64,000 nucleotides of DNA, taken from Punctularia strigosozonata HHB-11173 SS5 (Eukaryota > Basidiomycota > Agaricomycetes > Corticiales > Punctulariaceae). Of the stretch, positions 973 through 5,144 are shown one piece after another. How positions within the stretch are numbered: the first letter of the stretch is position 1; each line of letters begins with the position of its first letter. The DNA is taken from the NCBI RefSeq assembly GCF_000264995.1, contig NW_006767447.1, positions 436,268 through 500,267 on the forward strand, read 5' to 3'. The notes below the pieces were generated by a model, which ran no database searches, was not told where the DNA came from, and saw only the letters and a list, made by a program, of their open reading frames with translations. The translations under genes and the position numbers were made by a program.

Positions 973-1726
973 GCGCGGCCTTCCTAGGCCGTTCCACTGG
1001 TCACGTGCTGGGCACCCGAGGACCCTCCCCTTCTCTCATTGGACCATCCCTCATGTTGCTGATGGATTACTCAGCTACTATATAGTCGCCTGTCGCACCA
1101 GGGAGCAACTCAGACTTGTTCTCTCAGTTGCCTCCCTGCCTTGTGCGACAGGTATGTGTATTCTCCCTCGTATCTTCGTGTATATACTCAGTTGCCTCCC
1201 TGCCTTGTGCGACAGTGTCTCCGCCGCCGTCCCGGGGGATCCGCGCCGCTCCTAGGAGCTCCAGCGCGTACTCTGACATGGGGAGTCTCTTCTGGGCCAC
1301 GTGCGTGACCGTCCAGTGGTCGATGGGGTACCTGGGTGCTTGGCGCCTGCAATCGCAGCTTTGGGTGTCGCAGGGCAAAGGTGAGGGGGGTGGTTGCGCC
1401 GAACAGCTTGGCTACTGGGGCTGTCAGAGTACGTGCTGGAGCTCCTAGGAGCGGCGTGGATCCCCCGGGATGGCGGTGGAGACGCTGTCGCACAAGGCAG
1501 GGAAGCAACTGAGAATATATACAAAGATACGAGACAAATACACATACCTGTCGCACAAGGCAGGGAAGCAACTGAGAGAACAAGTCTGAGTTGCTCCCTG
1601 GTGCGACAGGCGACTATATAGTAGCTGAGTAATCCATCAGCAACATGAGGGATGGTCCAATGAGAGAGAGAGAGGCTCCTCGGGTGCCCAGCACGTGACC
1701 AGTGGAACGGCCTAGGAAGGCCGCGC
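973..1726. repeat. large inverted repeat (foldback-like element)
   Basis: Two arms of about 305 bp, 973-1279 and 1423-1726, are reverse complements at roughly 94% identity by eye, around a 143-bp unique centre. The outermost bases are GCGCGGCCTTCC on the left and its complement on the right. Weaker matching extends outward to about 948 and 1752 (CTCCTA and GCCTCC blocks). The arms carry CTATATAG, CACGTG, TCCCGGGGGATC and CTCCTAGGAG. I see no transposase frame and no clean target-site duplication. It could be a non-autonomous foldback element or a locus for double-stranded RNA. The family is unknown to me. Confidence 0.85.
1123..1576. repeat. 29-bp repeat in four copies within the arms
   Basis: Each arm holds two direct copies of a 29-bp unit that starts CTCAGTTGC and ends TTGTGCGACAG. 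On the left they lie at 1123-1151 and 1187-1215. On the right they are inverted, at 1485-1513 and 1548-1576. A shortened inverted copy (CTGTCGCACCAGGGAGCAACT, near 1090 and again near 1590-1610) lies outside them, so each arm can also fold on itself. The first left copy is followed directly by GTATGT, and the second ends in CAG 64 nt later, which resembles an intron with duplicated borders. Confidence 0.75.

Positions 1727-2548: not shown

Positions 2549-5144
<2,596 letters not shown>

Follow-up and report, generated by a model that had tools for sequence, protein, structure and literature searches.

Near one end of the 64,000-nt stretch of Punctularia strigosozonata HHB-11173 SS5 DNA analyzed here (hereafter the window) lies an inverted repeat of about 750 bp, and the question it raises is whether such a structure moves as a unit, serves as a source of double-stranded RNA, or was left behind by other elements. 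We compared its two arms, located the true ends of the sequences that contain them, and searched the genome for further copies of each part.

The palindrome and the LTRs that contain its arms

The arms, at 973-1278 (+ strand) and 1422-1726 (- strand), are identical at 289 of 306 alignment columns (94%), with 16 substitutions and one gap, and flank a centre of 143 bp (1279-1421). This confirms the near-perfect palindrome with arms of about 305 bp reported in the preliminary description. When the whole window was scanned for inverted repeats (at least 40 nt, seed 14), four pairs were obtained; the palindrome accounts for two of them, and the remaining two consist of simple repeats of the CAG/CAA type, 36 kb from each other. 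The absence of coding capacity, also reported earlier, is a fair statement as far as mechanically listed open reading frames go: 12 of at least 50 aa overlap 785-1897, and the longest one lying mostly inside the palindrome has 158 aa and begins at TTG. Of the 16 substitutions that separate the arms, 13 are transitions, and 6 of these transitions affect a CpG present in one arm; this pattern, seen in a comparison made without a control, may reflect decay of methylated CpG.

Both arms are parts of longer sequences. Comparison of ends with other copies places the left arm in a solo LTR of 494 bp on the + strand (LTR1, 785-1278), which begins TGTCAGGGCACGG and terminates CTCTGACA, and the right arm in a solo LTR of 476 bp on the - strand (LTR2, 1422-1897), which begins TGTCATGGCACGCC at 1897 and terminates CTCTGACA at 1422. 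Both have TGTCA...TGACA ends, as do the two-LTR copies described below. LTR1 is abutted by a 5-bp target-site duplication, TGGGG (780-784 and 1279-1283), and LTR2 by another, GGGGC (inner copy 1417-1421, outer copy 1898-1902), and the interior of the element is absent from each. It had been stated that there was no obvious target-site duplication, which is wrong; the duplications were missed because the palindrome fades near 973 and 1726, inside the LTRs, where the U3 regions of two LTR subfamilies differ.

These subfamilies, A (LTR1) and B (LTR2), have their last ~305 bp in common (94% identity between LTR1 and LTR2), the part that forms the palindrome arms and probably comprises proximal U3, R and U5, while their distal U3 is unlike: the first 188 bp of LTR1 aligned to LTR2 are identical at 114 of 215 columns. 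The palindrome thus stops at 973 and 1726 because the A and B U3 regions diverge there, and its featureless-looking ends are explained; other copies stay similar outward past both positions. Genome searches with the distal U3 gave 40 matches for A and 26 for B, and the two sets coincide at one place in the merged list, a nested pair on contig C21. There (locus L012, C21:123193-123862, locus positions 713-1305 and on), a solo LTR of subfamily B (826-1305) with the duplication GTCAC lies within an A LTR whose start is at 713 and whose remainder follows the insert; that B copy is therefore younger than that A copy and, judging from this arrangement, the family also inserts into itself. The unlike distal U3 on a common 3′ part could perhaps be due to a promoter swap or to recombination between elements.

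Duplications were also surveyed at 37 loci (L010-L046), where 43 LTR 3′ ends fit the pattern. The inner end reads ...CYCTGACA in most other copies, the exceptions being a diverged copy, a masked copy, and two that are truncated or interrupted. Both ends were found for 37 LTRs, and the start was not found for the remaining 6 3′ ends. The 5-bp flanks match exactly in 20 of the 37, with one mismatch in 3 and with two or more mismatches in 14. When ends were paired across different copies as a control, exact matches occurred in 3 of 1332 comparisons, a set containing one copy with a masked flank that is unable to match. Among the 14 LTRs lacking a matching duplication, 5 border a primer site or purine tract and thus belong to longer copies (L011, L028, L029, L030, and one in L032), the flank of L025 is masked, and 8 are not explained by a single clean solo event (one each in L012, L016, L018, L019, L021, L033, L036, and L039).

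Parent retrotransposon family

The genome searched was the window's own (33.6 Mb, 32 contigs), in which the 754-bp palindrome gave 89 matches. With each place counted once, these matches put the arm at no fewer than 45 places (of 67 candidates, 40 were scored), the two in the window and a fragment of 43 bp among them, and a search with the centre found only its own place. A merged list of LTR searches holds 71 LTR places or fragments among the matches listed (for pattern matches, 100 of 117). The preliminary description had proposed that dispersed copies with the same ends would support a mobile element; such copies exist for the single arm, which supports a mobile-element origin.

Longer copies indicate what the LTRs belong to. 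At C5:1707070-1715419, a direct LTR pair has GTCCA on both outer sides, the primer site GAAGAACAAGTCT follows the 5′ LTR, and GGGGGTGA precedes the 3′ LTR. In a degenerate B copy at C17:214478-220596, a profile search identified a zinc knuckle, RVT_1, RNase H, Integrase_H2C2, rve, SH3_Tf2-1, and Chromo, scanned in separate frames that are not all connected; a gag-domain match reached 23.5 bits, slightly below the 24.1 cut-off. Four of the five letters of the outer duplication of this copy were seen, the fifth being outside the stretch read. The order reverse transcriptase-RNase H-integrase with a C-terminal chromodomain, which defines chromoviruses, was found in this one degenerate copy only. 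Judged by these domains, the family is a Ty3/gypsy chromovirus.

The primer site, whose first letters are not TGG, holds, from 2 nt past the LTR on, the exact complement of an 11-nt stretch of the LTR itself. When the 20 nt of this site were shuffled 5000 times, 4 shuffles gave as good a match. The first 28 letters after the 5′ LTR are identical in the three copies examined (L028, L053, and one in L032). The complemented stretch, AGACTTGTTCT, is located at 1112-1122 (+ strand) in LTR1 and at 1577-1587 (- strand) in LTR2, and in both it sits 34 nt past what we take to be a TATA-like box, in LTR1 the motif CTATATA at a computed position of 1078-1084 (+ strand). This stretch is a candidate self-primer and a putative transcript 5′ end, and the family is probably of the self-primed Tf1/sushi type.

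Several fungal elements are comparable. Tf1, Tf2, and Tj1 of Schizosaccharomyces and Tcn1 of Cryptococcus resemble the present family in domains and arrangement, having Ty3/gypsy domains that include a Tf2-1-like SH3 domain and a chromodomain. Tf1 makes 5-bp target duplications. A primer site complementary to the LTR at the likely transcript start, as seen here, is described for Tj1 and Tf1 (PMC4600332) and proposed for Tcn1 (PMC7175516). Solo LTRs like those in the window occur as well (PMC7175516), and fungal solo LTRs likewise consist of a lone LTR between copies of a target duplication. Compared with Tf1, Tf2, Tj1, and Tcn1, the present family is divided into two LTR subfamilies that differ in their distal U3, and its two-LTR copies measure 6.1 and 8.35 kb; compared with fungal solo LTRs generally, the two in the window stand face to face and so form a palindrome.

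Origin of the palindrome

We consider it very nearly certain that the palindrome represents two independent Ty3/gypsy insertions in opposite orientation, 143 bp apart, each now reduced to a solo LTR. Two copies of one chromovirus family, putatively self-primed, would have inserted at this place, each creating its own 5-bp duplication, and LTR-LTR recombination would then have removed the interior and one LTR from each copy. Recombination between LTRs to yield a solo LTR is a general process (PMC7175516). The centre, which holds the inner copy of each duplication, is single-copy and is thus probably plain host DNA between the two insertions. The arrangement probably has no selected function.

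Alternatively, the pair may persist because read-through transcripts of one LTR fold into a hairpin from which the family is silenced. The whole palindrome is predicted to fold stably as RNA (-690 kcal/mol, against a shuffle mean of -298, with none of 20 shuffles equal), so that, on this model, the sequence could physically form a cruciform or double-stranded RNA. The TATA-like and self-primer sites face each other, with putative starts at 1112 (+ strand) and 1587 (- strand), and an RNA running from one start through the other could have a stem of ~166 bp and a loop of 143 nt. The genome also encodes domains of both types that such a pathway would use, with 14 Piwi stretches of Argonaute type, 13 of them above the cut-off, and 2 Dicer-dimer stretches in a profile search. 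However, transcripts may be terminated by the LTR itself, the arms differ at 17 columns, and further close opposed pairs exist, so that the pair in the window is not singled out. We regard this explanation for the retention of the pair as very unlikely, and hold the broader proposal, that face-to-face solo LTR pairs are sources of hairpin RNA silencing the whole family, to be equally unlikely.

The arms are long and inverted and a gene is not evident, as would suit a foldback or MITE-like DNA transposon with the arms as terminal inverted repeats, a possibility raised in the preliminary description. Against this, according to the merged list 35 of the 45 arm places (a lower-bound set) lack an opposed LTR at a gap below 1 kb, the centre occurs once, and the arms run outward into different U3 regions, each with a 5-bp duplication of its own, whereas movement as a unit would give one outer duplication. 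We therefore rejected this explanation as having almost no chance of being correct. Inverted repeats can arise as misassemblies, but a mirror-image misjoin, too, is rejected as exceedingly unlikely, given the 17 differing columns between the arms, the distal U3s from different subfamilies, and the unlike duplications.

Close LTR pairs and their setting

The pair in the window is one of several close LTR pairs in the genome. Among the matches listed, fragments included, 13 pairs of adjacent LTR places have a gap below 2 kb (6 tail-to-tail, 4 head-to-head, and 3 direct). When both members were required to have at least 300 bp, 6 pairs remained in our own reading of the merged list, and all are opposed: C1:507663/508363, C2:721387/722588, C11:753460/753965, the window's own, C17:401478/403807, and C18:319991/322031. 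At L021 (821-1837; C11:753460-754476), two LTRs stand face to face 24 bp apart, the A LTR with the duplication GTGCG and the B LTR without a matching one. Close pairs are commoner than a uniform spread would give, the expectation of 0.22 referring to starts within 1.5 kb and the count to a 2-kb gap, and the placement of LTRs is suggestive of something other than randomness. Recombination may have removed direct close pairs and so left an excess of opposed ones, or insertions may have clustered. Targeting of tRNA genes is weakly disfavoured, as ARAGORN (bacterial code; intron-bearing tRNAs may be missed; no positive control) found no tRNA gene in the 37 LTR loci or in the window.

The LTR pair lies upstream of a DEAD-box helicase gene that starts ~650 bp to the right of LTR2, with the start codon placed by eye. 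This gene, at 2549-5000 of the window, is DBP2-like by eye and has a glycine-rich N terminus. In a profile search, one of its exon pieces matches DEAD above the cut-off and another matches Helicase_C slightly below it, and the first exon piece has no family match. Short introns noticed by eye, together with the RNAi-type domains and the Tf1-like elements, suit a fungal genome.

A striking palindrome is in this way resolved as ordinary retrotransposon debris, and no new mechanism is demanded. Opposed LTR pairs nevertheless merit attention in small-RNA work: if the silencing proposal were true, the element's own debris would make a self-built trap against the retrotransposon family.
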